Assembly: GCA_021399445.1 (NCBI GenBank)
Contig: JAJTUQ010000011.1
Span: 310,001 to 374,000 of the forward strand
Direction: 5' to 3'
DNA from: Xylogone sp. PMI_703
Taxonomy: Eukaryota > Ascomycota > Leotiomycetes
Length of the DNA stretch: 64,000 nucleotides
The notes beneath the pieces were generated by a model. The model had not been told where the DNA came from, did not search any database, and was given only the letters and a program-made list of their open reading frames with translations. How positions within the stretch are numbered: the first letter of the stretch is position 1; each line of letters opens with the position of its first letter. This document shows positions 5,763 to 63,275 of this stretch, piece by piece. Both the position numbers and the translations under genes were made by a program.

Positions 5763-6122
5763 TCACGAGACTGTTCCATGGATCATCTGTGCATGATTCT
5801 GGAAATACATCTTGCGTTCAAGAGTTATTTAACAAAGTTTACACTTGATTAAACCTTCGTGGTACTTAGATAAATGTCTTTGCTTGAAGTGTTTTGTCAA
5901 ATCTCTTAAAGTATAGAACTCGTGAATAAACTCTTCAATGCAGGGATCATCTGGCGACAAGGACATTGTCATTCCGACGTAGACAAAACACCTTCGAGGT
6001 CTCTCCTTCTCATTCTTAACAAAAAGGGATATTGCAACGGTATGCAATGAGCTCTGGGGTGGCGGGTCCACGTTAAAAGAGACACGTGGTTGTTCCGTTG
6101 GTCCTGAGGACTTTAAAGGCAC
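5763..6122 (-). pseudogene. C-terminal zinc-finger relic of a DUF3435-family (Starship captain-like) protein
   Basis: The frame contains RPRRCFVYVG, then HEFYTLRDLTKHFKQRHL, then IKCKLC. An in-frame TAA (5829-5831) follows, and beyond it the same frame reads ITLERKMYFQNHAQMIHGTVS and stops at 5763. This order, R-P-x-x-C-F-x-C-x-G, then D-L-x-x-H-F-x-R-x-H, then C-x2-C, L-E-x-K, N-H-x-x-x-I-H-G-T-V, is the C-terminal zinc-finger tail seen in many fungal DUF3435 proteins. The second Cys of the first finger is Tyr. The TAA replaces a residue between the C-x2-C and H-x4-H parts of the last finger and is consistent with CAA to TAA decay. The recombinase domain is not present upstream. Some DUF3435 proteins are captains of Starship elements; whether this one was cannot be told. 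Confidence 0.6.
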
Positions 6123-6431
6123 AGTGTGTCCTTCCTCTACAGTGCAGTACGAGCGATAACATCGATAGCCTCGTCCCTCCGCCGGTGCTGCCCCTCGAGG
6201 CGTCAGCGAATTTTACCCGCTGAACACATAAGTAGAATTATCTAAATTTAGCCTTGGTGAGTTCCTCAAATGGCCCCCTTCAAGCCTGTCCTTCCCAAGT
6301 ACGGATCCAGAATTCAAAATCCTCAATGTCTAGAGGGCTATGATCAATTTGAACTTTAGTCAAATATGTCTATTTAAAATCATGCCCTCTGCCTTAACTT
6401 GAAATTTCCAGAGAAAAACAACCCTCCCACT
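6123..6431. other. intergenic between DUF3435 relic and MADS-like copy 2
   Basis: No coding signal continues the DUF3435 relic upstream. The stretch holds the presumed 5' region of the plus-strand MADS-like gene. Confidence 0.45.
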
Positions 6432-6726
6432 ATGGCTATCAAGGTAAGGAAAAGACGAAATGAAAGATTTAGTAGAAGAAAGGACACCCATATTAACAAG
6501 GCTCACGAACTTGGTCAACTTTGCGATGCCGACATATCACCCATTATCCGTAATCGCAAAACTGGCCGTATCTTTAATTACAACTCTATTGACGTCGAGT
6601 CTTGGCCCCCATCTAAGGGGCAAATAGTAAGTTTGCCTATTTGATTTTGAGAGCATGTCATTAATAGAAATAGCAACAATCGTATCTGGTACTAGCGATC
6701 CTGTATCTGTAGGATTTAAATGTTAA
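6432..6726 (+). CDS. small MADS-box (SRF-type) domain protein, copy 2
   Basis: Exon 1 (6432-6626) is 65 codons, the same length as copy 1 at 4401-4595 on the other strand. It reads KRRNERFSRRKDTHINKAHELGQLCDADIS, then NRKTGRIFNYNSID, and ends KGQI at a GTAAGT donor. The acceptor is uncertain. Read-through stops at 6644. A second frame after AATAG at 6669 reads EIATIVSGTSDPV and stops at 6726, and copy 1 has the matching phrase EIATIISTTADVV after its donor. Similarity between the copies therefore continues past the intron. The two genes diverge around the DUF3435 relic. The predicted role is DNA binding by the MADS core; a partner or target is not visible. Confidence 0.6.
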
Positions 6727-10434: not shown

Positions 10435-10454
10435 TGGCTGGACATATAAATATA

Positions 10455-11404: not shown

Positions 11405-12382
11405 CAGGCTCGATTTTGATTCGCTAGAGAGGCGAATCGATACGTATCGATTCCGGTATCAGCAAGAATCGATTCTTATCGATACGAGATCGATTCTGGA
11501 GTAGCGCCTTAGGCACCAGCGCACCACACATCCACAGAGCACCGTCGTACCCAATATATAAATAAATTATCAGGTGAAGAAGGATTTTTTTTTATTATCA
11601 TACATAACCCTAGAATTTACTCAAGCTCATCCTCAATGAAACTATTCAAAATCCCACTCTTTTTCCAATGCTTAAGGCATTCTGTCCACTCAATGGTTTC
11701 AGGCTCCATTTGCCCCCTCTCCCACGATATCGTACGACGAGCCCCTGAAAATACTCGCTCTGGTTCATCACTCATAGCTGGTATTGAAAGAATATCAATA
11801 GCCATATATGAAAGCCGAGGCCAGCGTTGTCTTTGGGTATCTTGGCACCACCACGCAAGTGCTCCCGTCTTACCAGGATCGTACGACTCTCCAGAATTAT
11901 AATCTTGATACTCGTCTTGGCTTGCTGGCCGAGCAACTTGCCCAAGAGTTTGAGCAATTTGATCAAAAGTATCAAGTTCTTTTAGTTCTTCAGATAGTCT
12001 CTCATATGAGAAAGAAACCGAAGTAGGAGGAGCCGGAACCTCTTCTCGATACTTCTCCCAAAGCTTTTTAACCTTTTCTATAGTTGGCTTTGCCCACTTC
12101 TTCGGCCAATTAACCTCGATATACCTCGCACGACGACTCGGGTGAAAAATAAGAGCAGCAGCATATAACGCAGACATATCTGTCTTAAAGTAATACTTAT
12201 CAAAGACTGCCCACCCTTTTTGAATCCGAAAAATAAACTCGGCATCTTTTTTCTTTTTGAAATCGGCCTATCTTCCGATAAGTATCTTTTAAACTTAAAA
12301 AAGGAGGAATACTTACAAGCGAAATCTGAAAATGTTTAATTAATATGTCCATTGTAAAGAGAACTCGGTCGATTGCTGCAGA
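11405..12382 (-). mobile_element. hAT-1 transposon, one end plus 3' part of the transposase, truncated by hAT-2
   Basis: The putative left end begins CAGGCTCGATTTTG at 11405. A subterminal region follows that is rich in ATCGAT motifs and includes a perfect 20-bp palindrome at 11434-11453. Transposase C-terminal coding sequence on the minus strand (11617-12382) is broken at exactly the position where the hAT-2 terminal repeat starts. The other half of hAT-1 was not found right of hAT-2. Confidence 0.6.
11617..12382 (-). pseudogene. hAT-1 transposase, C-terminal part
   Basis: The exon at the break (12382-12317) reads DRVLFTMDILIKHFQI. A 49-nt intron (12316-12268, GTAAGT...GATAG) follows, then the final exon 12267-11617. 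The last exon carries GWAVFDKYYFKTD, YAAALIFHPSRRARYIEV and, at the C-terminus, SYMAIDILSIPAMSDEPERVFSGARRTISWERGQM. This last part is the hAT dimerisation region with the third catalytic acidic residue (E in PERVFSGARR). The zinc-finger and first catalytic Asp regions are missing because hAT-2 has inserted upstream. What remains is open, so the break is structural rather than due to scattered mutations. The PERVFSGARRTISWERG form belongs to a different hAT subgroup from hAT-2. Confidence 0.85.
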
Positions 12383-12400
12383 CAGTGTGGGGAATAGTGT
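12383..12400 (+). repeat. hAT-2 terminal inverted repeat, left
   Basis: CAGTGTGGGGAATAGTGT, identical to the reverse complement of 15654-15671. Confidence 0.9.
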
Positions 12401-12521
12401 CACGGCCGTAATACGCCTCTGTATTTGAGACATAAATACAGACAGCCTGTATTCCAATACACTGTATTTTTTAGACATACACACGGAATACAATACAGTA
12501 CAATACACCCGTTTGGCCGTA

Positions 12522-14880
12522 TTACAAGCGTATTAAAGTGGGGCCACTTAAACCTGCACAACCTCTTGACTCCTCTGTATATACGCTCAGGCCCTTAATC
12601 TTCTGCCAGGACTTGAGGCTCTCAATCATCTCTATCGTATCTGCTTTGAGACGATTTCGTCTATCAGAGACGGTAATGTTTGAAGACGAAAACAGACGTT
12701 CCACTGATGCTGACATTGCAGGAATCGAGAGTATATCAAGCGCCATTTTGGAAAGGTTTGGATAGTCTCGTTGTTGCTCTGGTAAGAGCCACCATGTACG
12801 CACGTCGTCAAAGTCATGATGCGGAGGTATGCGTATATAGCGAGCGTACTCGTCTCCGTTTGGCGTTGATACTCTAGGCACACGTGAGAGAGACCTTGGG
12901 AGCTTGCGTGAGGACATACCTTGATGCATGTTTCCCCTGCTTCCACTGATTGAAGTTGCTGACCTTAGCACTACTTGGAGTGTCGATTTGATTAACGAGT
13001 GTGGTGCTGGGTCGATATTTTGTCTTCCATAGGCCAGCAACCGATTCCCTCGCCCCTTGTATCCAAGTTTGCTCCCAGTTCTTGTCAATATACTCCCACT
13101 TATAAGCGGGGTTCAGTACAAGAGCTGCAACGTAGGCTGGCGAATCAGAGGTCTTCTCGTAGTATTTGACCAGCTTTGACCAGCCGGCGTTGATGCAAGG
13201 CCCGAGAACCGGGTCGTCTTTAAACTCCACCTTCTTGGTTTCAAAAAGCTCTAATATGTAGTCCATGGCAGGCAGGACGTCGTCAAGTGTGGACATCGAG
13301 GACTCGAGCGAAAGAAGAGTCTCGTGTAGCTCTCTGAGAAAGTCGCAGATCTGTATTTGTGGACATGTTAGTGGTAGGTGGCTAGGGAGAAGGTCCAGGA
13401 CTAGTGTAGCATGCCTTTTCGAGCGTCTCCCAATCCTCTTGCGACAACTTACCCTCGTCATCACCCTCTAACCAAATGTCATAGAATTGATTGACTGCTT
13501 TTTGGAGGTGCAGTCCACGTTCAATTAGCCTAAACCAAGAGCCCCAGCGTGTCGCGTTATCTTGTGGTAACGTGAGGCCTTTACTAAGTGTTTTAAACTT
13601 GGCGAGAAGTTGAGGTGATGCGTGTATCTTAACACATAAGTTGTGAAGCTTTCCTAGAGGTCCTGCTTTCTTCCAGTCCTTTAACTGCTGCGTACTTGTA
13701 TCGCTATCATCGATTTGATCATGTTCACTAACAGAGAGGAAGGCATGAGTTGCAAGGTTTAGAATATGACCCTGGCAACGTATACGATGATGGCGAGGCT
13801 GGTACTCTTGTGGGATTGCTATGCGCAATTAGATAGGAGCTCCACTACAACAAGTGACTACATACCGATTGACACTTCTCTTAGCATCACGTCGTTATTG
13901 GGTGCGTTATCCATCTGGAAATAGCCAAGTCGGGGAGTTATGTCAAAATCGTCGATGGCCCGTCGGATGTGCAGACTCAAGTTCTCGCCCGTATGCGGCC
14001 CATCAACCTCTTTTAAGCATATCAAGGCCTCTTCTAGGTCACCTTGGGAGTTGACAAAGTGTGCGATGGCACCTAACAGAGCTAGATCATTCCCGGACGT
14101 CCAGAGGTCAGTGGAAATATGGATACAAGAACGAGAGGCATGGAGCTGCTCTTTGACTTGCTGTTTGTAGAAGTCGAATTGACGTATTATCCAAGACCGT
14201 ATCGTATGATGATCTTCCGGGAGCCACGGTTCAATCTGACGGTTGAGGTATACTAGGAGATTCCTGAAAGACGAGCACTCGACTAAGCGTAGTGGAAGAT
14301 TACATTCCGTAATAAAAGTAGTAATCAAGACCTCTAGCTGGTCGGGGTTGACATCTGCTTGGTCAATATAGTCGTCACGACTAAGACTGCTCCCAAAACT
14401 GCCTTCCAAACTCTCTCTAAAACAACGGCGTTTTTGAGGGTTAGCAGTTGCAGTTATAAGAGAACCTTCTATTGACATCTGCCTTTTCCTTGCTCTCTCT
14501 TGACGGAGCGATAGCTCACTAATGTTATGATTGACCTGTAAGTGGACCTTGATCAGTCGCGTACCCCCATTCAGGAGGTATCTCTTAGAGCAGTATTTAC
14601 ACCTCCACTCTAACTTGTTTGCGGCATTAAAGTATTGAGTACTCGTATCTACGTCCGGCATGTGTTTATATACCCAGGAAGTTCGATTGCGGGATATCGT
14701 AGGTGTGTGGCAATCTGGGTCGAGAGAGGATGGAGCAGAGGACGATTGCGGAGTAGAGACATCAGATATTGACAGTTGAAAAGGGTCGTATTCGTATGGA
14801 AGGAAAGGGACCTCGAGCTCGTCACATTGAAGCGAGGGGGGGCTAGAGCATCGGTGCGTACTGTTGTCGACTAAGGCCAT
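12522..14880 (-). CDS. hAT-2 transposase (733 aa, 4 exons), open throughout
   Basis: Exons are 14880-13866, 13818-13415, 13350-12920 and 12873-12522, giving 2202 nt and one stop. Introns 1 and 3 are GT-AG (47 and 46 nt). Intron 2 (64 nt) fits only with a GC donor, AAG|GCATGC, joining ETLEK to ICDFLREL as in related transposases. Domains in order: BED-type zinc finger near residues 65-110 (WRCKYCSKRY...HLQVNH), first catalytic Asp in TDLWTS near 258, second Asp in QMDNAPNND near 324, LPAMDYILELFE in the middle, and the C-terminal dimerisation block MALDILSIPAMSASVERLFSSS with the catalytic Glu. All expected acidic residues are present. The protein would cut and join DNA at the terminal repeats in the nucleus. 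It is probably functional or recently so. Confidence 0.9.
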
Positions 14881-15653
14881 AACTTAGTTGAGTGCTTGAG
14901 TGGCTGAGTGATTGAGCCATAGGAGGGTAGGTAGGAGTAAGTAGGAGGACGCGCCCTTATATAGGTAGAAAGATCACTCTACAAGGATGTCGGTGATTTG
15001 TTTTCGCGTTTTCAAAACAGAACCTAAGCCAAATCAAGAATAATTTCGGAGCTTATATCTTGACTACAAGGTAAGTTACCATCCAAAAAAGAAATTAATT
15101 GGAAACAAATATGTTAGAGCTATCGAATAAGCATACTCCGGCGAGGTTTAGTTACGTTCTGGTGTTGTAAACTTGTAGTGCGTGTAAAAGGAAAAACGGA
15201 GCCCCAGTACATATATTCTGAAGCTATTCCCAACTTCAAAATCGTTAAAAGAAGTCACATTTTAGAAAACCTTAAAACTAGTTAACACAGCAGTCCAATA
15301 AGTATCAAATTGGATTTATTTGAAAGCCTTACCTTAGCCTGGAGCTTTCATTAGGTTAAGGCCGTCCATACTATTGTAGTGTCGTTAGGGAAGAAGCTAT
15401 GGACGTCTATCATATGCATTACCCCAGGAATGGCTTAAGCGAACCAAGAAATCAAAGGGTGTTGTGGCTGAATTGAGTCGGGATTGAGGCTGAGCAGCAC
15501 CCCTGCAAATACAGGCGTATACAGACTGTATTACGCTTACACTGCTGTATTATACTGTATTGTATTTTTTTTCTAACCACGCACGGAATACAGCCACTGT
15601 ATTGTAATAAACTGTATCTGTATTGTATTACAGAGCCTGTATTGTATACGGCT

Positions 15654-15671
15654 ACACTATTCCCCACACTG
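15654..15671 (-). repeat. hAT-2 terminal inverted repeat, right
   Basis: Reverse complement reads CAGTGTGGGGAATAGTGT, identical to 12383-12400. Confidence 0.9.
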
Positions 15672-15866
15672 GTATACGTATTAGCTCAGCTCTTGAGAGG
15701 TTACCTCCGGCATAGCACCCTGGTCGCTAAAATATAAATGATTAATTCGTGACGACGGTATCATCGACACATTCGTCATATAATGGCTGCGTCCCTGACG
15801 AATCGTGTCCATCAATGACATCGTCAACTCCACGTGATGCTGCAAAGGCGAAACGGATTCTCGGGA

Positions 15867-16824
15867 TTAATCTCCTTGGAGACACAGCAAGACGAAGGAA
15901 ATGATGCTAGTCTGGTTAGTCGCTATATTGGTATTTGGAGACCAGTCATCTCTTACGTTCACCAAGCTCTCTAATGATCCCGACAATGTACAAGACAGAA
16001 AGCTTAGAGCATCCTCGGACCACTTCTCATCATCAGGGGTAAGATGATAACGTGTAAGTATCATCTCTTCTATGAGTTCAGCCAAGATTGGGAAATCTAA
16101 CAGAACCTGTGACGTTTTCGAGCCCTCGTACAAGTGATCGTGATAAAGGGTTTGAAAATCTAAGACTAAGTGGAACATGTTAAGCTTGATAACATACAAT
16201 CATTGTGCTGAGCTCACCAAGTTTTATCTCTCCAGCTAAAGAAAATCTGATGTTTGCCATTGAAAGGTGTTTGCAAGAGAGTTCCAATGAGGAAATATAA
16301 GTTACTCCTTTTAAGACCTGAGATTGTAAGCATGGCATTGCCATGCGAGGTGATATAGGTACCTCCGCAGTGATTGTCGCTATTTCCCATTCCTCTAGCT
16401 CATACTTTTGGAATTCCAACTGGGATAGAGAGATACCGAGGTGTTCCATCACTAGGAAAGTCTCGTCATTGTTGCAGTAGACATCATAGACAGCTGCAAT
16501 ATTGGGATGTTGAATGCTGGAAAGAATTTGACGCTGTTCCAGAACATGGGAGCTCTGGCATTGTCGAATATTAACGAGCTTGAAATACGAAGCCTTTCGG
16601 CTTGCGAGTATTTCTTGTCCAAGATGATGAATGTAGTCGTAATCGTCCCACGGTTGTCCAAGCAGGATCCTGAGAAACCTATGGGTTGTTCCAGGCGTGA
16701 CTGCCACCGTTCCCGAACGGGAGTCAGTGGAAGATTTGGTTACCTCTTCTGAACTGTCCCGGAGAGTCATGGGCAATTTAGCCTTAATTCTCTTTAGGCG
16801 ATGGGGAATTCCGAATTGGCTCAT
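15867..16824 (-). CDS. pseudokinase A (284 aa, 3 exons)
   Basis: Exons are 16824-16363, 16317-16218 and 16159-15867. The middle exon is exactly 100 nt. The first intron (45 nt) is open in frame, so it can be mistaken for coding. The fold is a eukaryotic protein-kinase type: WDDYDYIHHLGQEI in the nucleotide-loop region, LEQRQILSSIQHPNIAAVYDVY, FLVMEHLGISLSQLEF at the hinge, then VLKGVTYISS...CKHLSMANIRF where HRDLKPxNI belongs. The catalytic HRD Asp is gone, no DFG is present, and no VAIK lysine is clear. The protein should therefore not phosphorylate substrates; a scaffold or sensing role is inference. Two paralogues lie at 24940 and 33277. A GATCATC-type repeat lies upstream. Confidence 0.78.
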
Positions 16825-17471
16825 CTTGTACTTTAGATAAAGTTGGAATTTTCTAGGAAGACCTTGAAACTTCTTTCGTGAGACAAATAGAAAGGATATT
16901 AAACGCTGATGGAGTTAGTGACTCTTAGGCCCAGGCTCGCAATCATTGAGAGTGGATGTTCCTACCTCGTATGTAACGGAGCCCATCCAGCCCATAGAAT
17001 CATCCTAGTAGAGTCGACCACCGGGAAGTTGATGGTTTTCATATATAGTAGTGAATGGTAACCATCAAAAGTTGGGTGGCATCCAGTCATCTAGACCAGC
17101 CAGAGCATCCGGTTCACACAGACCATCCAAATTATTCGGATTGTCCAGCCATCCAGATAACACTGACCATCTCTAAACGATGTCAGGAATGATTCATTTG
17201 TGTAGTGAAATGGCGTTGTGAATACGTATGAGTTGAAAATTTTCGCACGATCAAAACGAGACGACATCGTTTGACTGGTGAAGCTATGGCCTCAACAGGC
17301 CTCACAAATGGAGGGAGAAGTTCGATCCCCTGAGAACGATTATAATTAGGGTAAAATCTGATTCCATTAATTTACATACGACTAGAGAAACTTTTGGATA
17401 ATTTAGTTATGAATATTTCTCGTATCTCAGATATCAACTCTCTATGTAGCGACAGCTGGCCTGGGATTTCC
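16825..17471. other. intergenic, 5' region of pseudokinase A
   Basis: It contains the CATCC repeat cluster described separately and nothing else coding. A phrase resembling a tRNA T-loop (GTTCGATCCCC, 17304) has no matching tRNA body. Confidence 0.5.
16980..17170 (-). promoter_or_regulatory. CATCC/GATGATC-type repeat cluster upstream of pseudokinase A
   Basis: About nine units of (A/G)(T/C)CATC(C/T) occur here, including CCCATCC, ATCATCC, ACCATCA, GCATCC, GTCATC, ACCATCC and GCCATCC. They lie 155-350 bp upstream of the start codon. The units are more divergent than in the other clusters of this window. Confidence 0.4.
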
Positions 17472-18674
17472 TCAGTTCCCTACAACATCATAAGGTAACC
17501 ATGCCAGTTCAAGTAAGTTATCATTAGACTCTCGTGGGATAAAACTCGAACTCGTCGTGTTATGAAAGGTCCACCAGCTTTTTCCTATTCCAATATCAAT
17601 CCAGTCTTGCATAAGACCCTTAATGCGAACCAAATCCACGTCTAAAAATTCCCGCATTCCAACAATGACCGTTTCCCAAGAGCCTTCTTCCAAGCTGATC
17701 TCGCTCAATTCAATGTTCTTCAAGGTTAGGGTGTGCCTACGAATAAAATCCAGCAGATGCAATGGATTCTGAATTTCCAATGCATTCAGGCTGATAGCTC
17801 GCAACCTGGGAAGATCAAGAGAATCTAAAAAATCTCGTGGAAGTGGGTAGCTGTACTGATCGGATTGCAAAACCAGTTCCTCTAGTGATGAAGCCGCCGA
17901 CTGGATTAGCTTTGATATGCTATCGAAATTGAGCTGTTCACCATCCACGCGCCACGGTAATAACATTCTCAAGCGTCTCAATTTTCCAAATACATACGGA
18001 TACGGCATAAGAGCTGCAGAAGAGAGGTTCTGAATAATTCCTGTAAATGCTGGAGAACCCGTACTAGCAGATTCTAAATGTAGCTCATCAATCTCTAATC
18101 CGGACACAAATAACGCGGTTGTGATCGTCTCAAAAAGCCTCGCTCCGTTTTCTGTGTAACTAGGGTCATCCGGGAACCAATCTCCCCATAGAGTGCTTAA
18201 ATCCTCCACAATTCTAACAGAACTGAGCTTTTGAAAACAAGATAGAGCTGAAGCTAGGCTGGCCGTATCCACATTGCTGTCTTCAAATTGCTGATGTTGG
18301 CAACCATGGTAATATATGTCGCTCAACCTGTCAAACTCACGTTGTATCCATGTTTTCTGACGTGAATATGCGCCTTGGGAGTGCTCAGGCTTAGTTTGAA
18401 AGGCTTCAAAGGAACAGGTTAAGCGCCGAATAGCTTTGCAGGCACAAGGAAACTTCGACATCTTAAGGAGAGCCGCGTAACTTCCTTTTCGTTGAGTGAA
18501 TGTAACGTGTTCGAATGCAAGACCTTGCCCAACAATCGCGAGTCTTTTACAGGTAGCACGACTAGAAAGCAAATCATCCTTTTTGCCATGCACGGAGAAA
18601 TCAGTATCGACATAATGAAGGTATTTAAGGATTTCTAGCAAAATTTCATCTGGTAATCGAAGCATTATAGTCAA
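17472..18674 (-). CDS. F-box protein with LRR-like C-terminus (400 aa)
   Basis: An intronless frame. Residues 4-45 are an F-box (LRLPDEILLEILKYLHYVD, then RATCKRLAIVG), the motif that binds Skp1 in SCF ubiquitin ligases. The rest is leucine-rich with irregular repeats (IDELHLESA, LRRLRMLLPW, LEELVLQSD, LRAISLNALEI, LKNIELSEISL), as in F-box/LRR proteins of filamentous fungi. It lies between pseudokinase A and DUF3723 copy A, all on the minus strand, and shows no upstream GATCATC cluster. A substrate-recognition role is inferred from the architecture. The frame is intact. Confidence 0.82.
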   Translation of the reverse strand: MTIMLRLPDEILLEILKYLHYVDTDFSVHGKKDDLLSSRATCKRLAIVGQGLAFEHVTFTQRKGSYAALLKMSKFPCACKAIRRLTCSFEAFQTKPEHSQGAYSRQKTWIQREFDRLSDIYYHGCQHQQFEDSNVDTASLASALSCFQKLSSVRIVEDLSTLWGDWFPDDPSYTENGARLFETITTALFVSGLEIDELHLESASTGSPAFTGIIQNLSSAALMPYPYVFGKLRRLRMLLPWRVDGEQLNFDSISKLIQSAASSLEELVLQSDQYSYPLPRDFLDSLDLPRLRAISLNALEIQNPLHLLDFIRRHTLTLKNIELSEISLEEGSWETVIVGMREFLDVDLVRIKGLMQDWIDIGIGKSWWTFHNTTSSSFIPRESNDNLLELAWLPYDVVGN

Positions 18675-19672: not shown

Positions 19673-21486
19673 TCACCTGTGTAGCACTATGAGGAGAATC
19701 CAGTTGCTCATCTCCAGGTAAAGGTCCAAAAAAGGCGAGATAAATGGATCGTTTGATATAGAAAGAACTGACACCCTCCCCACCCCTAAGCCGACCAAAG
19801 GAATATGCATTTTATCAAGAAATATGTGATTAAGGTCGTCAGGATTTCGGTCCTTATCATTATCAGATAGTACCCAAGCTTCGGGACCACATCTTCGAGA
19901 GAGGGGTTCACCCAAACCAGACACGGTACTCCAGGGTGTCGATCTGTCTGCGGGAGGATTCCCCAACGCATTCACAAGCTCTCTGAGCTCTCTGACGATT
20001 GGCCGTGCCCCTGTCTCAATATCGGCAGCCTTCTGGGTTGGTAATATACGATACAGTAGATCAAGCACCATCTTCTGATATATATCGTTCTTCATCAACG
20101 TACTAATCCTACTAGAAGAGAACCCTAATTTCTCAGCAAGATCTGCCAGCCCAGCAATTGAATAACTATGTTCTCTTTGCCTTGGTGGCTTCGCAGAATA
20201 TCGAATAGCGCAGAGAAATATCTGGCGGACGGCGAGATCGAATGAATGCTCATAGTTTCCTGTGAACGTAGCATAAGAATGTTCTCCAATCTGAATCTCG
20301 AGAGCATCCTCGGTAGATCCCGCGTCAAAGTGAAAACGTAGCGCCTCTCGGAGTGACCCTTTCCATGGTTTTGGTATGAGGTCTCTTATCATTCTCACTG
20401 CCGGCTCGATATATAGCAGGTTTTTGAATAAGGAATGGATGGTAGGGATCGGGTGCTCAATAGTCATAAGACGGGAGGTGATTCCCTGCCTTGCGGCCGG
20501 ATCCCAGATTTCTGGGAATAACCTGCCAGATGTCATCTGATTTTGAACAAATTCGGCATCGAACCTTGATAGTGCCGGAACTCTGAGCTGAAGGGCTTCA
20601 ACCGTGAATTCATCCGTACTCTCCATGAGTGACTTGTCCCCTTCTAAGATCTTGCCCCACGTTTCTTTGATGCATTTTATATAGTGACAAATTTCCTGCG
20701 TGCATAGATTTGATTAAATGCCCCAAATTGAAGGGAACATGAGCATACCTCATCACATTTCGGAATTATAAGGATGTCCACAGATCCCGCGTGAAAGGCT
20801 TTCCATAGACCTCTCACTGGTAGAAGTGAGTCTAGAGCGGCTAATAAATCCTTGCGCTTTAGAACTTGTTTTAACTTTCGATCTTTAGCTTGACTATATC
20901 GAGCCCTCCAGTGTTGCTCCCCATTTTCGTCACCGGCGAGCTTACAGCGACGAAAATGGCGAAAAATTTCCCCGTCTGTATAGTTAGCAGAGTAGAAATA
21001 CCCATCCCGAAGGCTCTGTCGAGCGTCGTTGCTAAGACCTGTCAGGATCAGTTTATAAGTAAGCCTTTTGAAATAATACTATTTGCACTCACCCTTTCCA
21101 TAAAGTTCGAGGGTCCACCATTCCTCTTCTGAGAGAGGGATTTGTTTGGCAGCAAGTATCCTGTGCTGACCATCCAAGCATTCTAATTCTGTGCCTTTAG
21201 AGAATCGTAGCTTCGGTGGGTCGTCTAACGAGATAATCTCAAAAGCATCAACATCGATACGGGCCTTGTTTAATGCTGTTTGGAGAATCTGATCGTCAAT
21301 GACGGCTGGAATTCTGTATTGTTTGTGCAAGCATCCATCCGCAATAATAGCTTTCTTCAGCTGGGCGAGAGAATTCTCATCGATTTGTCGAATAGGATTT
21401 GGGAACGCCAGGTGACTAATTCGAACTTGGGCCCTACCCCTGAAATTGGTAGCCTTGTCTTCTATTTGTCGTGCAAGAGCTGCCAT
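19673..21486 (-). CDS. DUF3723 protein, copy A (frameshifted 3' end)
   Basis: Exons are 21486-21093, 21038-20749 and 20695-19673, with GT-AG introns of 54 and 53 nt. Family landmarks: IEDKATNFRGRAQVRISHL near the start, LECLDGQHRILAA and EEWWTLELYGKG at the end of exon 1, then ALDSLLPVRGLWKAFHAG and EICHYIKCIKETWGKIL. Near 19810-19813 a run of four A on the coding strand puts the C-terminus out of frame; the shifted frame restores the family block GEGVSSFYIKRSIYLAFFG and is open to a stop at 19545-19547. So a 1-bp deletion, or a sequencing slip, separates this copy from a full-length protein. DUF3723 is a Starship accessory family of unknown function. Copy B is at 26287. Confidence 0.85.
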
Positions 21487-21634
21487 GAAGTTATAGCATG
21501 TGATGTCTTTTTAATATTTTACCTCGTCAATTCCTAATTCTTCGACTAATATTATGTACAGATAACATTATCACCAAAAAGAAGTTCCAAAAGTATTAAG
21601 TTGGCCTAGTAGTCCAATTATCGCCACCTTTGAG

Positions 21635-26210: not shown

Positions 26211-26286
26211 TTGATGTATAAATGCGCGTCCCCAGTTCTAGAAGAAACTACTCCTCTCCTAACCCTCAGAGCATGACTCTGTAACC

Positions 26287-28746: not shown

Positions 28747-28926
28747 GAAGCCCGAGATCGATACCATACAGCTTGGGATGAAGGAATTGGAACCAGGGAA
28801 GCAAGTGGCTAGTATAGACTGAAAGTATCTGGCTATAATGACATCCGAGATCAGCTGTGGGATCTGACGCGAGACTATCTCGAGGAGGGTGTCAGTTTGG
28901 TAGAATTGGATTATCAGCCGAAGTAG
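28705..28926 (+). pseudogene. ferric reductase 3' end relic
   Basis: From 28825 the frame reads VSGYNDIRDQLWDLTRDYL, then EEGVSLVELDYQPK and a stop. The intact ferric reductase at 30489 ends VSANDNIRDELRLIVRGYL, then NDGLSMVELDYQPPK. Upstream, EEVLGKHIRKPEID and LEPGKQVAS correspond to the preceding exon of that gene, read in a frame different from the DUF3723 end it overlaps. Only this terminal NADPH-domain piece survives. Confidence 0.75.
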
Positions 28927-47205: not shown

Positions 47206-47780
47206 ATTATCTTGAGATATATAAGTTTGTTTTGTAAGGCAGTTATCTCATGTAATGATGGATGAAAACGTGCTTTAGCTGACCCAGAAGATGACATCAA
47301 AGAGAAACTCGTAAAAACCCATCTTATATATCGTGAGTAATGTGAAGTTAGCGTTTATAAATTATGTTCCTGAGCGGCAAAAGTCTAAAATTTCCTGTAT
47401 GTATCAAGTATCGATGTCGTAAAGGGTGCTGGAACTTGTGACTATTTGGTCATTGGTGTACGCTGAATCTCGTTGTCGGTTGCCGAAAATGTGGGTGGCC
47501 CCCTAGCCCAACCTGGTTTCAGATGAAACAAAGAACTCGTCGTGGCTTTCCTCCCTCAGCTTTTAAGGTTACTTGCTATAGCAGTGGATCTACACCAAAC
47601 ATTTGCTCTGTCTTTTAATATCTTATGATTTATTATGCTTAAAATGAAAGACTGATAAAGGTGTATGCTGTTGTGTGGCTTCAGAAATTTAAGATACAAG
47701 TTCTTAATTGAATCTTTTTCCAGAGAACCAATTTCTAAACAAAAAATAACAAGAATTTATAAAATTCTTGCCATTGAACG
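47206..47780. promoter_or_regulatory. divergent intergenic region of the dehydrogenase and SDR genes
   Basis: A 575-bp stretch between two diverging starts. No clear binding-site repeat is visible. Confidence 0.35.
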
Positions 47781-48607
47781 ATGCTGGTAGATAACGAGAT
47801 AAGAGGAAGACTTGCCCTGATTACGGGAGCATCTGGTGGGTGAGTGATGGTTTTGCAATCCTCACGTGTCTGTACATTCTAATGCCATTATGCAGCATCG
47901 GAGCGGCTTGTGCGTCAGAACTTTTGACCCACGGTGCCCACCTTGCTCTGATGTATTGTAGATCGAAGGAAAGCATTGATGCCCTTGTCAACCAGCTTCA
48001 CCAGATAGGCACTTTCAGCGATGTCAAAATTTCTGTTCATCAAGTGGATATGGCATCGGGGGAAGATCTAATAAGCTTGTTTGAAGACATTTACCGCCAG
48101 CATGGGCGTTACCCGGATATACTCATTTCTAACACTGGGTATGGAAAACGAGTGCCAGATTTGAAGGATATTACATTCGAAGAGTGGAATTATACGATCT
48201 TAGTGAATCTGACCGCATCTTTCGTACTTTGTCAACTGGCTATCCAGCATATGCAGACCAGCAAATGGGGGCGAATTGTGATTATCAGCAGCATTGCGGG
48301 CTACGAAGGTGGAATTAATGGATGCCATTACGCTGCTTCTAAAGCTGGAGTTAAGGGCATGGTCCGAAATCTTGCACAAAAACATGGAAACGACGGAATC
48401 ACTATTAATGATGTTGCTCCTGCTATTATTGGTGACACTGGGATGATTCCTGACGCAAAATATGTTGAAGGGACACCTGGAGACGTGAAAAATATTCCTG
48501 TTGGTAGATTAGGCACTCCAGTGGAGGTAGCTAATATTGTGATTATGGCATGCAAAACGGGATATCTAACGGGGCAGAGCATTCTTTTAAGTGGAGGACT
48601 GAAATAG
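47781..48607 (+). CDS. short-chain dehydrogenase/reductase, FabG-like (256 aa, 2 exons)
   Basis: Exons are 47781-47839 and 47896-48607, intron GTGAGT...TGCAG (56 nt). Splicing restores the cofactor motif TGASGGIGAA. Further classical-SDR landmarks: VDMASGEDL, LISNTGYGKRV (NNAG variant), IISSIAG with the catalytic Ser, YAASKAGVKG with the YxxxK pair, and VAPAIIGDTGM. The C-terminus TGQSILLSGGLK is the usual V-D-G-G ending changed to S-G-G. It probably reduces or oxidises a small carbonyl or sugar with NAD(P) in the cytosol. It lies between the Zn-dehydrogenase and the dehydratase; the SDR and dehydratase converge, 75 bp apart. A sugar-dehydrogenase role in a catabolic pathway is inferred from context. 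Confidence 0.9.
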
Positions 48608-48682
48608 TTTGGATCTTTAGGAATATGCTTCGACATTCCCGTATGAATTAAAAAACATCACAATTACACTTATAATATACGG

Positions 48683-50602
48683 TCACAGTATGACATCCAC
48701 TAAAATTTCCCATATCCGAGTTGAATCTAGAAAAGATCTGTCACTGACAAGTGCTGCATATTTGGCCAGTGTACCTCGATTGACTGCCAGCTTTCTGCTT
48801 TTCCACTGCTTTTTTCTTTCCATCAATTCCTGCTCACCGACTTCGACAACGATTTTGCACGACACGGCATCAATAGTTATTACATCGTCGTTCTGGACTA
48901 AAGCTATTGGTCCCCCTTCTGCAGCTTTAGGACAAACATGACCTACAATAAATCCATGGCTAGCACCACTGTACCTGCCATCTGTTACCAGTGCGATGTT
49001 GGTAAGATTTGCGCCCATAATAACTGCAGATGCCTTCAGCTGTTCTGGCATACCCGGTCCACCTTTGGGACCTTCATACCTGACAACTAGAACTCTGTTC
49101 TCACCGCGTGGAATAAGTTGCTTGTTCAACGCTTGGTTGAGTTCTTCCTCCTTGTCAAAGCACATTGCTTTACCTCTGAAAACCAAACCTTCCTTGCCGG
49201 TAATTTTTGCAACAGACCCCCCCGGCGCAAGATTCCCTGTGAGGATGCGGATATGCCCAGTATCCTTGATAGGAGAGCTCAATGGTTTGATAATTACTTG
49301 ATCAGGAGGTAGAGAGGGCCAGTTCTTCACATTTTCGGCCAGGGTCCTGCCTGTCACAGTGGGAATGTCGCCGCCTATCAACCCTGCGTGGATTAAAAGC
49401 TTCTGAACGCTTGGAATTCCTCCAATTTCAAATAAATCGGCCATATAGTATCTCCCACTTGGGGCTAAATCTGCAAGAAGTGGGATCTTATTCGATACTC
49501 TCTGGAAATCGTCGAGAGTCAATGGAACATCCGCCGTGATTGCCATTGCCAAAAGGTGGAGAACCGCATTGGTGCTTCCACCGAGCGCCATAGTCATTAC
49601 AAGAGCATTTCCAAAAGAGCGTTTGGTAAGGAGCTTTCTTGGAGTGATGTTCTTTTCAAGACAGACTTTAATTGTCTGAGCAGCTGTTGCACACTCTCTC
49701 ATTTTGTTTGGTGATGTTGCTGGCGTAGAGCTAGAACCAGGTAGTGTCAAGCCCATGCTCTCAATGGCTGTAGCCAATGTGTTTGCAGTAAACATTCCTC
49801 CACACGCCCCAGCGCCAGGACATGCATTCCGGACTAAGTCATCCATTGTTTCATCTTTTGTCTTTGATGTATCTCCACCATCATTGGGTTGTTTTAGAGT
49901 GTCGTATCGGTATGCGCCAAACGCTTCAAAACATGTTGAGATATTTACAGGCTTGCGTAGAGTCTTGGAGAATCCCTTGTCAATTGTTCCCCCGTATATC
50001 ATCAAGGATGGCCGATTGTGCCGCGTCATGCCTAAGATACATCCTGGCATATTCTTGTCGCAACCGGCGATAGTAATATTTGCATCGTGACACTGAGCAC
50101 ATGTAACCGTCTCGATAGAATCAGCGATAATCTCTCGAGACTGGAGGGAAAACCTCATTCCTGTAACATTAACATCAGTACAACAGCCATCTAAACAGGA
50201 CTATTCATTGTAATAGCATCGCTGACTCGAATAGTATTATATTGCCATCCAAGCATCCCCTGAGCAAGAATTCCTCTTTTCACCTCCTTTGCCATGTCAA
50301 GTAAACTCATATTACAAGGGTTTCCCTCCCACCATACACTGGCAATGCCAATATGTGGTGCAGTCTTCATTGCTTGCTTGTCAGGCACTCCTGCCGCATA
50401 TAGCATGGCCTGTAAAATGCGATTAGAGTCAAAACTGCAGTTCAGGTTTCGAAGGTTGTACCTGGGTGCCAGGAAAATCATATCCTTTAGTCAAGAGTGA
50501 TGAATATCGATTCAACATTGGCTTCCCATCTTCTCCAATCGCATCTTCTTCTGCGTGTTGAAATTCCAAATATTGAGCTGATCGATGAGTTTGCTCAACC
50601 AT
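48683..50602 (-). CDS. IlvD/EDD-family dehydratase (608 aa, 3 exons)
   Basis: Exons are 50602-50462, 50409-50202 and 50160-48683; introns 52 nt (GTACAA...TTACAG) and 41 nt (GTCCTG...TTACAG), frame 1827 nt. The Fe-S cluster cysteines are all present: GNPCNMSLLD, IAGCDKNMPGC, ACPGAGACGGMFTANT. Other family blocks are MALGGSTNAVLHLLA, PGGSVAKITG, VVRYEGPKGGPGMPEQL, LVTDGRYSGASHGFIVGHVCPKA. The family dehydrates 2,3-dihydroxy acids: dihydroxyisovalerate in branched-chain synthesis, or aldonic acids such as arabinonate, xylonate and gluconate. Its neighbours (two dehydrogenases and an aldehyde dehydrogenase) favour the sugar-acid use over biosynthesis. No mitochondrial leader is obvious with the chosen Met; the start may lie upstream. 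Confidence 0.9.
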
Positions 50603-51539
50603 CTTCTCGATAACTGAGGTCTCTATGCCGGGAAATGATTCTGTAGCTGTTGAAAATTATTGATTTGTTCTAATTAAATTGGTATTGTGCAACCTAAATA
50701 TATCATTAATACTGGATCGCAAGGCATATACTGGATAATGATATAATATTCGACCACATGCGTAAAACCAGGTGGTACTTGGATTGGCACTACTTTCCTT
50801 TTCGGCTTGGACACAAAAGAGATGTTTAGACCATTTTAACCTTGTAACATTGAAATTTCCTAGGTAAGTCACGACGACATACTCTTCTACTGCTTTCTAG
50901 CAGGCTAACCCGTTTAAAATACGGTGCGTAATATGCATGCAGAAGACATTTCTTTTGGTCACACTATGAGAAGCCGATTATAAGCACAGGCCACGTAGAG
51001 AGCCTGAACTCTCATATCCAGGTAAGGCAAGAAGGTCACAACGATGGCTACGCCAGGCTAGTTGTAGCCCAGATTTTCATGCACCTAAATTCTCGCCTAT
51101 ACACGTGTATTAACTTTCAGGGCAATAAGATTTACTACGCAGCCGTATGAAACCCACGACGAGGGCGGAATCCAACACCCACACTCTATAATGTGGGTTT
51201 CACGCCAATTCCCATCCCCCCAATCAGGTTAGAGCAAGTGACAAATCGTTTCTGAATTGGTCTATACTAATCAGCGCTTTTGAATTGAATTGCTAAATCT
51301 AGCAAGTCTTGTGGATTTCAGTCTCCAATTACCTGCCCAACCGGCTGGAAACGGTCCCATTGGTGCATGCACACTACGAGGATACATCTCACTCCAATAA
51401 ATTTGGCGCCTCCCGACATAGGCAGATGGTTTTAAAGTATTTATACATTCGCTGTATAATTTATCTCCTGTCCAATTGCATACTTTACAAGTACATCTGT
51501 AAAACTTGACTTACATACGTAGGTTTCCTCTATACTAAA
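50603..51539. other. intergenic with a small cruciform
   Basis: Holds the divergent promoters of the dehydratase and aldehyde dehydrogenase. An inverted repeat of 10 bp (TGAAACCCAC at 51148, GTGGGTTTCA at 51193) encloses a 7-bp hairpin (ACCCACA / TGTGGGT at 51177-51198). Confidence 0.5.
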
Positions 51540-53186
51540 ATGTGGAAAATGGCACAGGCCGAAAAGTTAGAGGTGCTCACGAAGGTAAGACTCTTTAATA
51601 TCCGATTGTTGTGGGGGTTGAAACAAACAAGCGGTGGTCTAGCTCCAAGATCGTAGCCTCTTTATCGACTCGGCCTTTATAGACGGCCAATGAGTGAACA
51701 AGCCCAATACGTTTGCAGTAACCGAACCTTCGAGTGCAAACATCTTGGGTCATGTTACGGATTGCGATGTTGCAGACTTCCAGCGGGCAATTGAAAGTGC
51801 ACATTCAGCACAAGCAGAGTTCTACAGATCAACAACAGGCCCGGCTCGAGGGGCTCTTCTGCGTAAGTGGTACGACTTAATTATTGCTAACAAGAAAGAC
51901 TGTAAGTAGCCTAGCACAGCAGAGCATGCCAGTGCCGATGCTGAAGTAGTAAATACAGTGGCGACTATCTTGTGTCTCGAGAATGGAAAGCCGTATGCTG
52001 AGGCTATGGGTGAAATTATATTTGCTGCATCCTTTGTAGCTTGGTTTTCTGAGGAGGCACCTCGGGTATACGGGTTTACAATACCTTCTCAACATCCAGA
52101 CAGCCAACTTTGGGCTGTCAAGGAACCAGTTGGTGTATGCGGCATCATCACGCCTTGGAATTTTCCAGCAGCCATGATAACGAGAAAAATTGCACCTGCG
52201 TTGGCTGTGGGTTGCACAGTGGTCATAAAACCTCCGAGTGAAACCCCATTCACATGCTTGGCTTTAACTAAACTTGCTCTGGATGCTGGATTTCCACCTA
52301 CCACGATCCAAGTTTGTCCTACAAAAGACCGTCAGGCAGCAACAGAACTGGCCACTAATCCTTTGATAAGGAAGATCAGTTTTACTGGATCAACGGCAGT
52401 TGGCAAAATGCTGGCAAAACTCGCATCAGGTACGCTGAAAAAAGTCAGTCTAGAATTGGGCGGAAATGCCCCGTTCACTGTTTTTGACGATGCCGATATT
52501 GATGCTGCTGTCGATGGTGCCATGTTCAGCAAATTTCGTTGCTCTGGACAAACTTGCATTTGGTATGTTCCTTTTGCAGAAGACTTTGTTTACCTGGATT
52601 TATGTACTTACTTATTCTGTAGTTCCAACCGGTTTATAGTACAGAGTGGAGTAGTTGAAGAATTTACCAAGAAATTTGCTGCTAAGGTAGCCTCACTGAA
52701 GATGGGCCCTGGTCTTGACGCTTCTACTACTCAAGGCCCTCTTGTTAATAAAGCCACCGTACAGAAAGTTGCCGAATATTTACAGAACGCAGTCGAAAAA
52801 GGAGCGAAAATTGAGGTTGGTGGTTTGCCAAACAACAGCAGCGGGTACTTTTTCTCACCAACAGTCCTTACTGGTGTCGAACAAGGCATGTTGATTGCTC
52901 ATGAAGAGATATTTGGACCAATAGCATCGATATTTACGTTCTCCAGCTGGCCAACAATACAGAATTCGGGTTGGCCAGTTATTTTTTCTCAAAGGATATC
53001 AGTCGAGTTATGCGTGTAGCATCGCGCATCCAAAGCGGTATGATAGGGGTAAATACAGGCAAGATATCCGCTTGCGAAGCTCCGTTCGGTGGTGTCAAAG
53101 AGAATGGTTATGGTCGTGAGGGAAGCCATTATGGCATAGACGAGTATCTTACTATCAAAGCTATAACACTCGGTAATCTTTCTTAA
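51540..53186 (+). pseudogene. aldehyde dehydrogenase (semialdehyde type), two lesions
   Basis: Exons are 51540-51584, 51643-51901, 51959-52562 and 52623-53186. The family is clear: LQDRSLFIDSAFIDGQ, GIITPWNFPAAMITRK, ISFTGSTAVGK (Rossmann), LELGGNAPFTVFDDADIDAA, RCSGQTCI with the catalytic Cys, EEIFGPIASI, and EAPFGGVKENGYGREGS. It is closest in pattern to succinate-semialdehyde or oxoglutarate-semialdehyde dehydrogenases. Lesion 1: TGA at 51691-51693 where Trp is expected after FIDGQ (TGG to TGA). Lesion 2: between FTFSS (52942) and ANNTEFGLASYFFS (52950) about 20 bp are missing and the frame shifts. The first stop lies about 30 codons in, so no full protein is made. It was presumably the last step of the neighbouring catabolic cluster. 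Confidence 0.85.
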
Positions 53187-54239: not shown

Positions 54240-54638
54240 CTTGTTTAGAAGGATCCGGGGCGTTTACGCCGGGAATACAATTCTTTTTACCTGGACTATC
54301 TCATGTCTGGAGAATACACGCGTAATCCATTTACACAATCGTTCCACTGCAACCCGGAATGGGTTCGAGAACTGTTTGAGGAAGGGTGACCTAACAACGG
54401 CTCGCTGGTACTGACTCGCGTGGTTGCTTGCGAGGAATTTTTAGGCAGCCATTTGGCGCGCCATATTAATGAGTTGACCGAGGAAGATTATGAAATGTGG
54501 TTGGAGGTCATCATGCAGTTTGCAGAGCAAGACTATGTCTTGGTTTGTGCGGATCATATTTTAGCACTAGCTGCACGAAACAATCATAGAAACATATTGG
54601 AGAGGGCTACAAGCATCGAATCGGAGCTTAGGAAATGA
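54240..54638 (+). pseudogene. unrecognised protein fragment
   Basis: An open stretch reads REYNSFYLDYLMSGEYTRNP and CNPEWVRELFEEG up to a TGA (54387-54389). The same frame continues to CEEFLGSHLARHINELTEED, then QFAEQDYVLVCADHILALAARN and a stop at 54636-54638. A 51-nt GTGACC...GCGAG intron could remove the stop but has a weak donor. No family is recognised and no start codon is certain. Confidence 0.4.
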
Positions 54639-59728: not shown

Positions 59729-60061
59729 AAGTTTACCAGAGGAATACAATTATATATCTTTATAAATACTGCATTTCCTCTATGACCTACCTTCTGATGC
59801 TGCTGAATGCTCAGTACACAGGAGAAAGCGTGCTATAGTAGAGGGAAGTGGTGACAGAGGCCTTATCATACTCTAAACCTCTAATTGAATCATGTGTGTG
59901 AGCCTCTGCGAGAAATAACAACGAGGCACTGCAAATGCAACTACATAAATCATAGCTGCTGTATCGATGGCAAAAATGGACATATCATATTCCTAGGAAG
60001 GGGAAATTTTTAGCTTAGCTTAGAGCGGCTCAAATTAAGATAATATTCCATCGGCATTCCA
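59729..60061. terminator. convergent 3' intergenic region
   Basis: A 333-bp region between the stop codons of two converging genes. It must hold both 3' ends; no distinct polyadenylation signal could be singled out. Confidence 0.3.
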
Positions 60062-63000
60062 TCACAAGCATCGTCGCTTCCTCCGTGTCCTTTTTCGGAC
60101 AGGAAGAGAGTGCTTCTTGCTGTCGGATACGGGCGTCGATGTGTTGCTGTAACGTTTGCGCTCACAGCTGCAAGGCGGGTTTCTAGACCGCTCTATCCTG
60201 CTATTATGATCAGGCCGTCCAAACTTCGCATTAAGTCTCTGCCTCTCGGCAAACAATTCCATAGAATTCGGGAATAAACTAATGCTCCGATGGAACAGTC
60301 TGTTAAAAGCAAGCTGGATGGTAACCCTATCGGAGGGATGGCGTACGTGAAACACGACTGCTTTCCAAAAACGCCCACATAGCTTGCAGATATCGTTTGA
60401 ACTGAGAAATCCAAGGGAGACGTCGTGATGGAGGAATTGAGCGTAGGGAAAGGTGTTGAGAAGAACCTGAATGAGATCACGGCTGTCCGGACTCCGAGAG
60501 AGGATAGAACCACGACAGCAATACCGTCCTCCATCTAAAATCAGAGGCCCGTCCAGCTCAAAGAAAAAGGTTACCGCCTTGAAGGCTCTAGCAATACCGT
60601 CTATATCACCAAGATGATACCGTATTTGGTCATAGAGATACTGCATCTTGTCAACGTCGTCAATATCAGGTTCCTTGCCCACGAGTGGTAAATTTAGACG
60701 GAATTGCTGAGCCTTTGCTTCCTCTTCCAAGCCAGACCAATGGTCTTCCCAGCTTATCTGACCATTTAGAGATAGCGATTGCATAGCAGCTCGGTAAAAG
60801 CGAGCCATGGCCCCATCTTGAAGAAGATTTCGAACATTCGAGGCTACCGGTGACATGAGCTTTTGCTCAAATCCGGTTCCGATTGAGAGAACCACGTCAC
60901 AGTCGCAGTTGTCCCAGATTCTGCGGACTTCGCTCAGGCCGGGCCGCACAGGGTTATTGTTCTTTAAGGCGCCATCTTGAAGTGGCCCAAACGAGCGGAT
61001 AAGCTTAGGTTTGAAGTAACTAGGATCGTTAGTGTCAGCGCAATACCTATTTTCATGGCATTTACCTGGGTGCTGCCGTCGTACATCGTGCCCTAAAAAC
61101 CATTAGCAAGCCCGGCATGATGCGTCAATCGTACCTACGCTTCCCAGAGCAACATATCTTCACTCGCTTTTGTCGCTCGAAGGTGCTTATACCCTAACAT
61201 ATCGTCAGCTTGAGATAGACCTGAAGATCTTCCACCTACTTAGACCTTTCCGATACTGGCCCTCACCATTGTAGTTTGATATGAGGCATAAGGATGCGTC
61301 GGATATCGTGGTTGCAGTAACGGCAAACCTCATCCCAGATGTTCTTGACCCTACGGGTCCGAATAGAGAACCCAGCCCAAGAGCCTCTTTGAGAGAGTCT
61401 TCTAAGACAGTCACATCATACTTACCGTCTTCAAGATAGAACACAAAGATGCGCTGAATTATTGCCCAGATTGAATGCCTGCTGCGGACCTTAGATGGGA
61501 AGATATTTCGCGCAAACTTGCGAAAGAATGCGAGGCATTTTTTGGGGCTCCAATGCTTCCCAAAGAGCCCAATAGTTGCAATACCACCTATTTCACGTTA
61601 GGATTAGACTCAGGTGATACACTATAACTTACCTGAACTGGTTCCGATAGAATAATCAAAGTTGTCCTGTACCGGATAGTGCAGCCCGAGAGCCTGGCGC
61701 AGCTCCTCCATGAACCCAAGTGATACCACTCCTCTCGATCCACCTCCGTCAAAAGCTACGAATCGTACCCGACACGTCGGTGGCAAGATTCTTGCTTGGA
61801 AGCAGATTTTGCTCTGACACTGGGGACAGGTGCTGATGTCGAAATAGTATTCTCTCCCCTTTGTTGGTTTCCCGAAAGAGGGGATGCAAATGCAGGTGTC
61901 ACATATACCATGGCCACATTCCATCATGTGCTCTGGTTTCCTCTGGAGGCATATGAAGCAATCAATATTGGATTTTAATAGCCGGAGGTACCGACTATTT
62001 TGGTCGAGGCTTTGCTGACGGAGGGCAGCAGCAGACTGGCCACCATATTTTACGTGAGAAAACATTGAAATGATTCGTGCCTCAATATCGGCACAGATCA
62101 ACTCACAACACAACTGTCGAGAGTTTGCGAAGTCACGAATTCCAAAGAGACACGCATGGCGATATAACGTGCGAAAAACTTCCGATGGATTGAACACTCA
62201 GTTTTGGTTAGCTTGTCTATAGAACTGATTATTAGGCCCAAAACTTACAGTGCATATCAGGCGGGAAACTATCCAGAATGATTGCTGAAGTGATAAAATC
62301 CCAGGGGATATTATCGGGTAACTTGTGCTCGGAGTACAAGCTCATGAACGATTTCAGGTGATGCTGAAAGTTAGGAGAGACAGGATTGCCCTCTCTCGAG
62401 CTCCTAATAAAGTCAAATGTATCTAGTGGCGACATTGCAAAATCACGTAAAGCCATGTCAAAGAAGGCCGCAATGTGGATCATCGAAAAGAGTGTGTGAG
62501 TATTAGTGCGCTCGAAGCGTGTTGCACGGGCTTCATCATGTAAAACCTCCCCTAAACCGCTGAACAGCTCGCGAGGGGGTTGACGAGTCGACCCCAGAAT
62601 ATTCACTACCTTCAAGGATGAAAATGATTCCGCAAACCGAGAATTAGCCAATACTCTCAGACGAAAGCGTAGGACTTCTGAATCAAAGGCATCCCCTGGA
62701 ATTACCGTTACCACTACCAACCGAGGACGAATGCTGTTTGGAAGGCTTGACGCAGAACCTATTGTAACCCACGAGGTCAGCCTTTCCGCCACGGCGTCTA
62801 AGCTGCCGTAGTCCTGTGCGAAAATGCACAGCACGTCAACAAAGAGTGAAAGCAGTCGGGCATGAAGATGATCGACCAAGTCCTGTTGCGTAGGTAGGCC
62901 ATTCTCGTTTTCGGGCCAGACTACTGCATGGTTGATAATCTCGTGGCAGGTGACCTTTCCCCTGAGGTTTGTTTGCGTGTGGTCAAGACTACTGTCACCA

Positions 63001-63275
63001 ATAAGAATGGGATGGTCATCATTTGCCGTCGTTGGGTCCGCACATATATTCGCGATCCCGTATTTCCGGCAGTGGGATATGCTGTTCCCGGGGAATAAGG
63101 CTCGTAATGCTCGCGCTTTCGACTGTTTACCGATAAAGAATATCAGTGATGGGTATTGCTGGGCCGGGCAGGGCAGAGAGTTCGTAATATTGTGGAGTCG
63201 ATTGCCGTACTGCAGTATGAACCCGTTCTCGCCTTGATGCACACGTAACCACTGCTGGTGAGCGCAAGAAGTCAT
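60062..63275 (-). CDS. RING-patatin phospholipase-like protein (992 aa, 6 exons)
   Basis: Exons are 63275-62249, 62196-61633, 61587-61240, 61193-61139, 61092-61066 and 61019-60062; all introns are GT-AG of 45-53 nt and the 2979-nt frame is clean. Residues 1-340 form a family-specific N-terminus (YPSLIFFIGKQSKARALRALFP, DHLHARLLSLFVDVLCIFAQDYG, LDAVAERLTSWVTIGSASS). A RING-like finger follows near 420-465 (CFICLQRKPEHMMECGHGICDTC...CPQC). The patatin domain then has the oxyanion loop FDGGGSRG (about 498), the nucleophile elbow GTSSG (about 529) and the dyad Asp in QDGALKNNNPV (about 689). All catalytic parts are present. It should hydrolyse acyl esters of lipids. Patatin-like genes are a known Starship accessory family. 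The C-terminus ends in Lys/Arg-rich text. Confidence 0.92.

Follow-up and report, generated by a model that had tools for sequence, protein, structure and literature searches.

A DUF3435 captain gene with its 5′ element end, and a probable Starship interior beside it, in the genome of Xylogone sp. PMI_703

Introduction

Do the genes gathered in one 64,000-nt stretch of the Xylogone sp. PMI_703 (Leotiomycetes) genome form the inside of a Starship, i.e., of one of the giant transposons of fungi, or did they come together in some other way? The stretch in question (hereafter the window) is C3:310001-374000, where C3 stands for contig JAJTUQ010000011.1 (701,806 bp) of assembly GCA_021399445.1. An initial annotation of the window had recognised in it the end of a DUF3435 gene, two DUF3723 genes, a ferric reductase (FRE) gene together with a relic of another, and a RING-patatin gene, and had read the whole as Starship cargo or as a decaying Starship. 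The features by which Starships are recognised are a 5′ DUF3435 ‘captain’ as first gene, a length of 15-700 kb, cargo of the DUF3723, FRE and patatin-like (PLP) families, flanking direct repeats and presence-absence among strains, and we took them as criteria from PMC12134995, PMC9594970 and PMC12289983. Below, positions with a contig prefix are contig positions and those without it are window positions.

It has been proposed that Starships carry genes from one fungus to another. Orphans make up most of the captain-like genes: in PMC12289983, 2,899 genomes give 143 Starships and 10,628 orphan genes. Xylogone sp. PMI_703 itself is a mycoparasite which, according to PMC11708051, is in the top ten of 829 genomes for prokaryote-derived genes acquired by horizontal transfer. 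Of the open-licence papers searched it is the only one found to contain both names, and it mentions Starships just in its list of references; none was found on Starships in Xylogone.

Results

The initial annotation pointed beyond the window's edges for a captain, and one is indeed there within 200 kb, with a recognisable element end upstream of it. An uninterrupted DUF3435 gene of 863 amino acids (aa) occupies C3:427,857-425,049 on the minus strand, 51 kb to the right of the window, and reads toward it. The R, YxxR and Y columns conserved in tyrosine recombinases, which we take to be their catalytic residues, are present in its translation. The predicted structure of a protein 82% identical to the captain, a model of middling confidence, is that of a Cre-like tyrosine recombinase, and the captain would be expected to share this fold of its close relative. 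The assignment comes from a second structure aligner; Foldseek gave no match for that model at E≤0.001, with XerH ranked first, and a PDB sequence search with the captain profile returned one weak zinc-finger match only (E 0.049). The best homologue of the captain is found in Cadophora (82%), and a partial protein of Scytalidium lignicola is 65% identical; as to mobility or horizontal transfer, these likenesses are suggestive only.

DNA searches with C3:428,300-430,400 reveal two classes of repeats that meet at 428,715-428,723. The one on the captain side (class A) also occurs upstream of the DUF3435 gene of C10 (a contig of 175,881 bp), at C19 and at C25, and the one on the outward side (class B) at C14 (94%), at C24 (79%) and, more weakly, at C14:13 kb. 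A terminal sequence of ~95 bp, ending in AAACCGCAGTACTCA, is common to C3, C10 and C19:6.843 Mb (79-83% identity), and its C10 copy, too, stands upstream of a DUF3435 gene. After AAACCGCAGTACTCA come ~9 nt and then a core, which reads TATAATATT at C3, TATTATATT at C10 and TATAATAAT at C19:6.843 Mb, i.e., TATWATAWT at all three termini; the class A copies at C19:516 kb and C25 are without the AAACCGCAGTACTCA end. The flank to the right of the C3 junction is TATAATATTTTAC. In C14 and C24 the class B repeat crosses the junction without the element, ending after 22 bp, and a 28-base pattern spanning the junction is found on these two contigs only. The meeting of the two classes, the common terminus and the continuation in C14 and C24 therefore place the 5′ end at about C3:428,714, with TATAATATT as its core; the C14 and C24 copies, which are paralogous flanks, support this 5′ junction only. 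With the terminus at C3:428,705-428,714 the captain starts 0.85 kb inside it (~0.65 kb on C10), and so is the first gene within the end, reading inward. As far as three sites can tell, TATWATAWT may be the target preference of the captain. The C19 copy of the terminus (C19:6,842,889-6,842,986) has no DUF3435 match on its contig, and could be an orphan end or the end of a decayed element.

The stretch between window and captain (C3:374-425 kb) holds a second FRE, a heterokaryon-incompatibility (HET) gene, a CHAT-domain protein and two Tc5-type transposase open reading frames (ORFs), and no housekeeping gene was recognised among the 13 ORFs scanned in it. Another HET gene is situated just beyond the 5′ end. 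A block near the captain recurs on C10 and other contigs.

Two of the families found in the window, DUF3723 and DUF3435, co-occur in this genome more often than by chance. The genome analysed (one strain, 50.13 Mb in 25 contigs) was searched with profiles, whose counts for DUF3723, DUF3435 and NACHT are lower bounds, and matches were merged into loci by hand, those of FRE and patatin likewise. DUF3723 has at least 23 matches forming at least 12 loci, and DUF3435 at least eight loci, five of which have a DUF3723 within 100 kb. Uniform shuffles reach five in 0 of 20,000 trials (mean 0.32), and shuffles within contigs in 8 of 20,000 (mean 1.85), with the lengths of 19 of the 25 contigs used singly and the other six (0.99 Mb together) pooled as one. 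At 30 kb, the only other distance tried, DUF3723 is near three of the eight DUF3435 loci, a number reached by 4 of 20,000 uniform and 318 of 20,000 within-contig shuffles. Three of the 22 FRE loci lie within 100 kb of DUF3435 and five within 100 kb of DUF3723; for the 12 patatin loci the numbers are two and two. The accessory genes within 100 kb of a DUF3435 gene are mostly on the side into which it reads (10 of 11); these are not independent, because five of them are on C3, and counted by locus the figure is four of five, the exception being C4. Elsewhere, C24:516,889-520,199 and C24:897,805-900,082 each carry FRE and DUF3723, inverted with respect to each other and ~380 kb apart; parts of them score equally in both, the second DUF3723 half matches in the first copy only, and the pair is read as an inverted duplication. 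NACHT matches occur near DUF3435 on C10 (at 137 and 142 kb, with DUF3435 at 149 kb) and C2 (225 kb, with DUF3435 at 231 kb), unlike on C3.

One end only of the element is located. From it to the leftmost DUF3723 is ~99 kb, to be compared with the 15-700 kb of Starships. The 11-base terminus, allowing one mismatch on both strands, has no second copy in C3:210-474 kb, the half-site pattern with up to three mismatches matches C14 and C24 only, and an ungapped scan for the left end did no better than its reversed control. A further TATAATATT stands at C3:329,178 and its left context is similar; considered as left end, it was rejected, because a score as high is reached at 754 of 40,362 AT-matched positions and one other of the six cores has the same score.

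Within the window (Table 1) the accessory families DUF3723, FRE and patatin are all present, and the two DUF3723 genes, the FRE and its relic stand as first annotated. So does the DUF3435 finger: Pfam finds no match in it, but the assignment is right despite this, because its DNA matches the 3′ ends of DUF3435 genes on C4, C5 and C20, three in all, at 75-79% identity, and its peptide the C20 copy at 70.7% across 58 aa. As captain of the accessory set, however, this relic was rejected, because it is a truncated 3′ fragment, reads left, away from the set, and belongs to another subfamily. Of the supposed RING-patatin gene the patatin part stood up (E 3.3e-9 in six frames at C3:371,376-371,756, over cut-off; E 8e-6 in ORF 61,625-62,197, slightly under it, 26.6 vs 27.7 bits), with its RING part leaving a weak signal (E 0.004, under cut-off) and the ORFs on both sides of the match (60,065-61,102 and 62,235-63,296) giving none in Pfam. 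DUF3723 gene a has one TAA and one TAG inside its two six-frame matches, in which introns were not modelled, and gene b is annotated as a partial protein of Xylogone sp. PMI_703. In the FRE, ORF 31,032-31,757 matches FAD_binding_8 (2.5e-10) and NAD_binding_6 (1.4e-5) and ORF 31,771-32,307 matches Ferric_reduct (7.4e-7); ORF 30,492-30,893 is without a Pfam match. The kinase-like/F-box block is 88% identical over 2.5 kb to C4:43,779-46,339, ~6-8 kb from the DUF3435 match at C4:36,863-38,153, and 95% over 1.2 kb to C5:27,862-29,090. The young repeat beside the hAT ORFs is present at nine further places of the genome (97-98% identity) and would be the right part of that transposon. A 17-bp minisatellite of 14.5 copies occupies 3,677-3,913.

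Table 1. Features recognised in the window, with positions counted from its first base
Feature	Position	Strand	Evidence
Truncated DUF3435 3′ end (C-terminal finger), C4/C5/C20 subfamily, relic	5651..6200	-	DNA and peptide identity
hAT transposon ORFs (11,620-14,883) and adjoining young high-copy repeat (14,900-15,675)	11617..15675	-	Dimer_Tnp_hAT 4.3e-14, zf-BED 3.9e-4
Kinase-like and F-box genes, common to C4 DUF3435 locus	15727..18267	-	Pkinase 4.5e-7 (under cut-off), F-box-like 2.5e-5 (at cut-off)
DUF3723 gene a	19676..21510	-	Pfam DUF3723 1.4e-51 and 1.7e-19
DUF3723 gene b	26263..28743	+	Pfam DUF3723 3.1e-72 and 6.1e-30
FRE C-terminal relic	28697..28920	+	tblastn E 3.6e-9 to C-terminal ORF 30,492-30,893
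Block in common with C4 DUF3435 locus	29548..30226		80% to C4:49,079-49,923, two pieces
FRE, three ORFs	30492..32307	-	FAD_binding_8, NAD_binding_6, Ferric_reduct
Amino-acid permease fragment	36620..37141	+	AA_permease 4.1e-50, profile positions 156-307 of 470
Metabolic cluster, candidate cargo: alcohol dehydrogenase (ADH), short-chain dehydrogenase/reductase (SDR), dihydroxy-acid dehydratase paralogue, aldehyde dehydrogenase (ALDH)	46211..53016	ADH -, SDR +, dehydratase -, ALDH +	Pfam
Patatin-like gene, weak RING signal	60065..62197	-	Pfam Patatin

The metabolic cluster is possibly cargo as well. Its Pfam matches are to zinc alcohol dehydrogenase (1.2e-18), SDR (6.3e-39), dihydroxy-acid dehydratase (3.3e-95) and aldehyde dehydrogenase (2.7e-107), and the DNA of 44,000-63,900 has two other matches in its own genome, one of them (68%) to the dehydratase. 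This last gene (48,686-50,200; its annotated product has 608 aa) shares 70% identity with the copy that the host has on C19. In a 23-row tree (C19 and 22 rows chosen from 120 listed matches) it clusters with Trichoderma breve and a single protein of Exophiala aquamarina (96/93) and not with the host copy, the C3 and C19 rows both being flagged as long branches. That the paralogue was acquired from elsewhere is only hinted at, because the rows include no other Leotiomycete.

Some further sequences were noticed along C3. At C3:210-216 kb an MmgE/PrpD protein, an isochorismatase-like ORF (so labelled by eye) and a major facilitator superfamily (MFS) transporter stand side by side. At C3:433,742-433,764, within the contig, a telomere-like AACCCCCTAACCCTAAA stretch adjoins an AT-rich block, and at C3:442,894-448,439 direct repeats of ~230 bp, 94% identical, flank an open frame of 1,534 aa, by eye a long terminal repeat (LTR) retrotransposon.

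Discussion

The results of this work suggest that the window is probably the inside of a giant mobile element of a known kind and not of a new one. Since there is a captain, in the position proper to captains, with cargo of the families expected, the element is classed as a probable member of the Starships, and on balance we favour the window being the inner and distal part of such a transposon, at least ~99 kb long if the leftmost DUF3723 is part of it. The reading of the initial annotation is thus supported in part, by the captain 51 kb away, by the cargo families and by their co-localisation in the genome, and not by the window's own relic. The element would begin at about C3:428,714, and its first gene would be the captain, which reads leftward, toward the cargo. 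Cuts by the captain would be expected at the element ends, and Cre-like strand exchange would insert the element into an AT-rich TATWATAWT core. The window likely belongs to the captain's one element, which would continue unbroken from the one to the other and may still be mobile today. The cargo would be made up of DUF3723, FRE, patatin, HET, CHAT and kinase-like genes, with the metabolic cluster as a possible addition. A bolder version, in which a single Starship of at least ~100 kb with an intact captain and a TATWATAWT core carries the catabolic-looking ADH/SDR/dehydratase/ALDH cluster, and in which the same terminus marks further elements, seems to us unlikely to hold in all its parts. 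If it did hold, Starships would be an active route of gene transfer in Xylogone sp. PMI_703.

Several observations weigh against a single element. A left end, a target-site duplication and a left half-site were not found in C3:210-428 kb. The best single change point of ln(TA/AT) over that interval is at 326 kb (reached by 0 of 1,000 block shuffles), that of GC at 398 kb (5 of 1,000), that of a second dinucleotide index at 355 kb (1 of 1,000), and a fourth index has none (451 of 1,000 shuffles as high); because these disagree, no left boundary is named. The empty-site evidence is thin, because only 22 bp of the flanking repeat are left of the junction in C14 and C24. Among the homologues listed, the C10 captain is represented by an annotated protein and the C3 captain is not. 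None of the at least 63 NACHT matches is on C3; the initial annotation had counted NOD-like receptors (NLRs) among the recurrent accessory genes of Starships, in which they are frequent but not obligatory. The patatin match has four internal stops, and there are relics beside it in the window. The two FREs share ~34% identity, and the DUF3723 genes reach no more than 36% with any of the other loci compared, so that no recent common history of the accessory genes is visible; recent duplication of these genes is likewise ruled out. Finally, DUF3435 and DUF3723 are both concentrated in small contigs, which explains part of their association, and the blocks common to the window and the C4 locus are not collinear.

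This last point, together with the recurrence of the near-captain block on C10 and other contigs, is why the main rival is a mosaic of several Starships, in which the captain at 426 kb would sit in a shorter element and the window would be the older, captain-less remains of others (one of the C4/C5/C20 subfamily) with later transposable elements added. We consider it unlikely, in spite of all that it accommodates: a minus-strand DUF3435 relic of another subfamily, FREs and DUF3723s divergent in pairs, pieces of the C4 locus (C4:43.8-46.3 kb, 88%; C4:49.1-49.9 kb, 80%) in scrambled order, a hAT insertion, and composition that changes at differing positions. The stretch from window to captain showed no recognisable element end, although a 3′ end of unknown sequence is not directly searchable, and the relic is left of the change point at 326 kb, most accessory genes being right of it. 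A lineage-specific compartment, i.e., an accessory chromosome or subtelomeric region accumulating these families without one mobile element, would suit the occurrence of 9 of 12 DUF3723 and 6 of 8 DUF3435 loci on contigs shorter than 1.5 Mb, the remaining three DUF3723 loci being within ~320 kb of contig ends, and also a left flank with transposase-like ORFs and pieces of non-ribosomal peptide synthetase, P450 and MFS genes. It is nevertheless quite improbable, given an association that survives within-contig shuffling at 100 kb, a common terminus and a captain-first geometry; moreover, C3 is not demonstrated to be a chromosome, because the telomere repeat is absent from the 150 bases read at each of its ends. 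That common fungal genes should have become neighbours by chance is hardly credible: FRE and patatin do have many members elsewhere, but DUF3723 and DUF3435 are rarer and co-localised, and the shuffles disfavour it.

We thus return to a Starship-type element, one whose captain now has a 5′ terminus, an end sequence found at other loci too and a candidate for its target core. The same or a similar recombinase is that of solo DUF3435 genes and Cryptons, which are not known to carry a large cargo set, whereas here the recombinase is amid Starship accessory families. The likeness to the Starships of Pezizomycotina lies in the DUF3435 gene at the 5′ end reading inward, in DUF3723, FRE and patatin, and in the AT-rich surroundings of the insertion; unlike in these, the 3′ end, direct repeats and an empty site were not found here, C3 has no NACHT match and some genes of the set are broken. 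Close terms of comparison are ‘Horizon’ (143 kb) and ‘Icarus’ (294 kb, captain absent) of Pyrenophora tritici-repentis, as described in PMC9594970, whose edges were located by comparing isolates, whereas this work deals with a single genome. They likewise combine a captain, or its loss, with DUF3723, FRE or phospholipase and heterokaryon-incompatibility genes, and Icarus offers a model of what a disabled element of this kind looks like.

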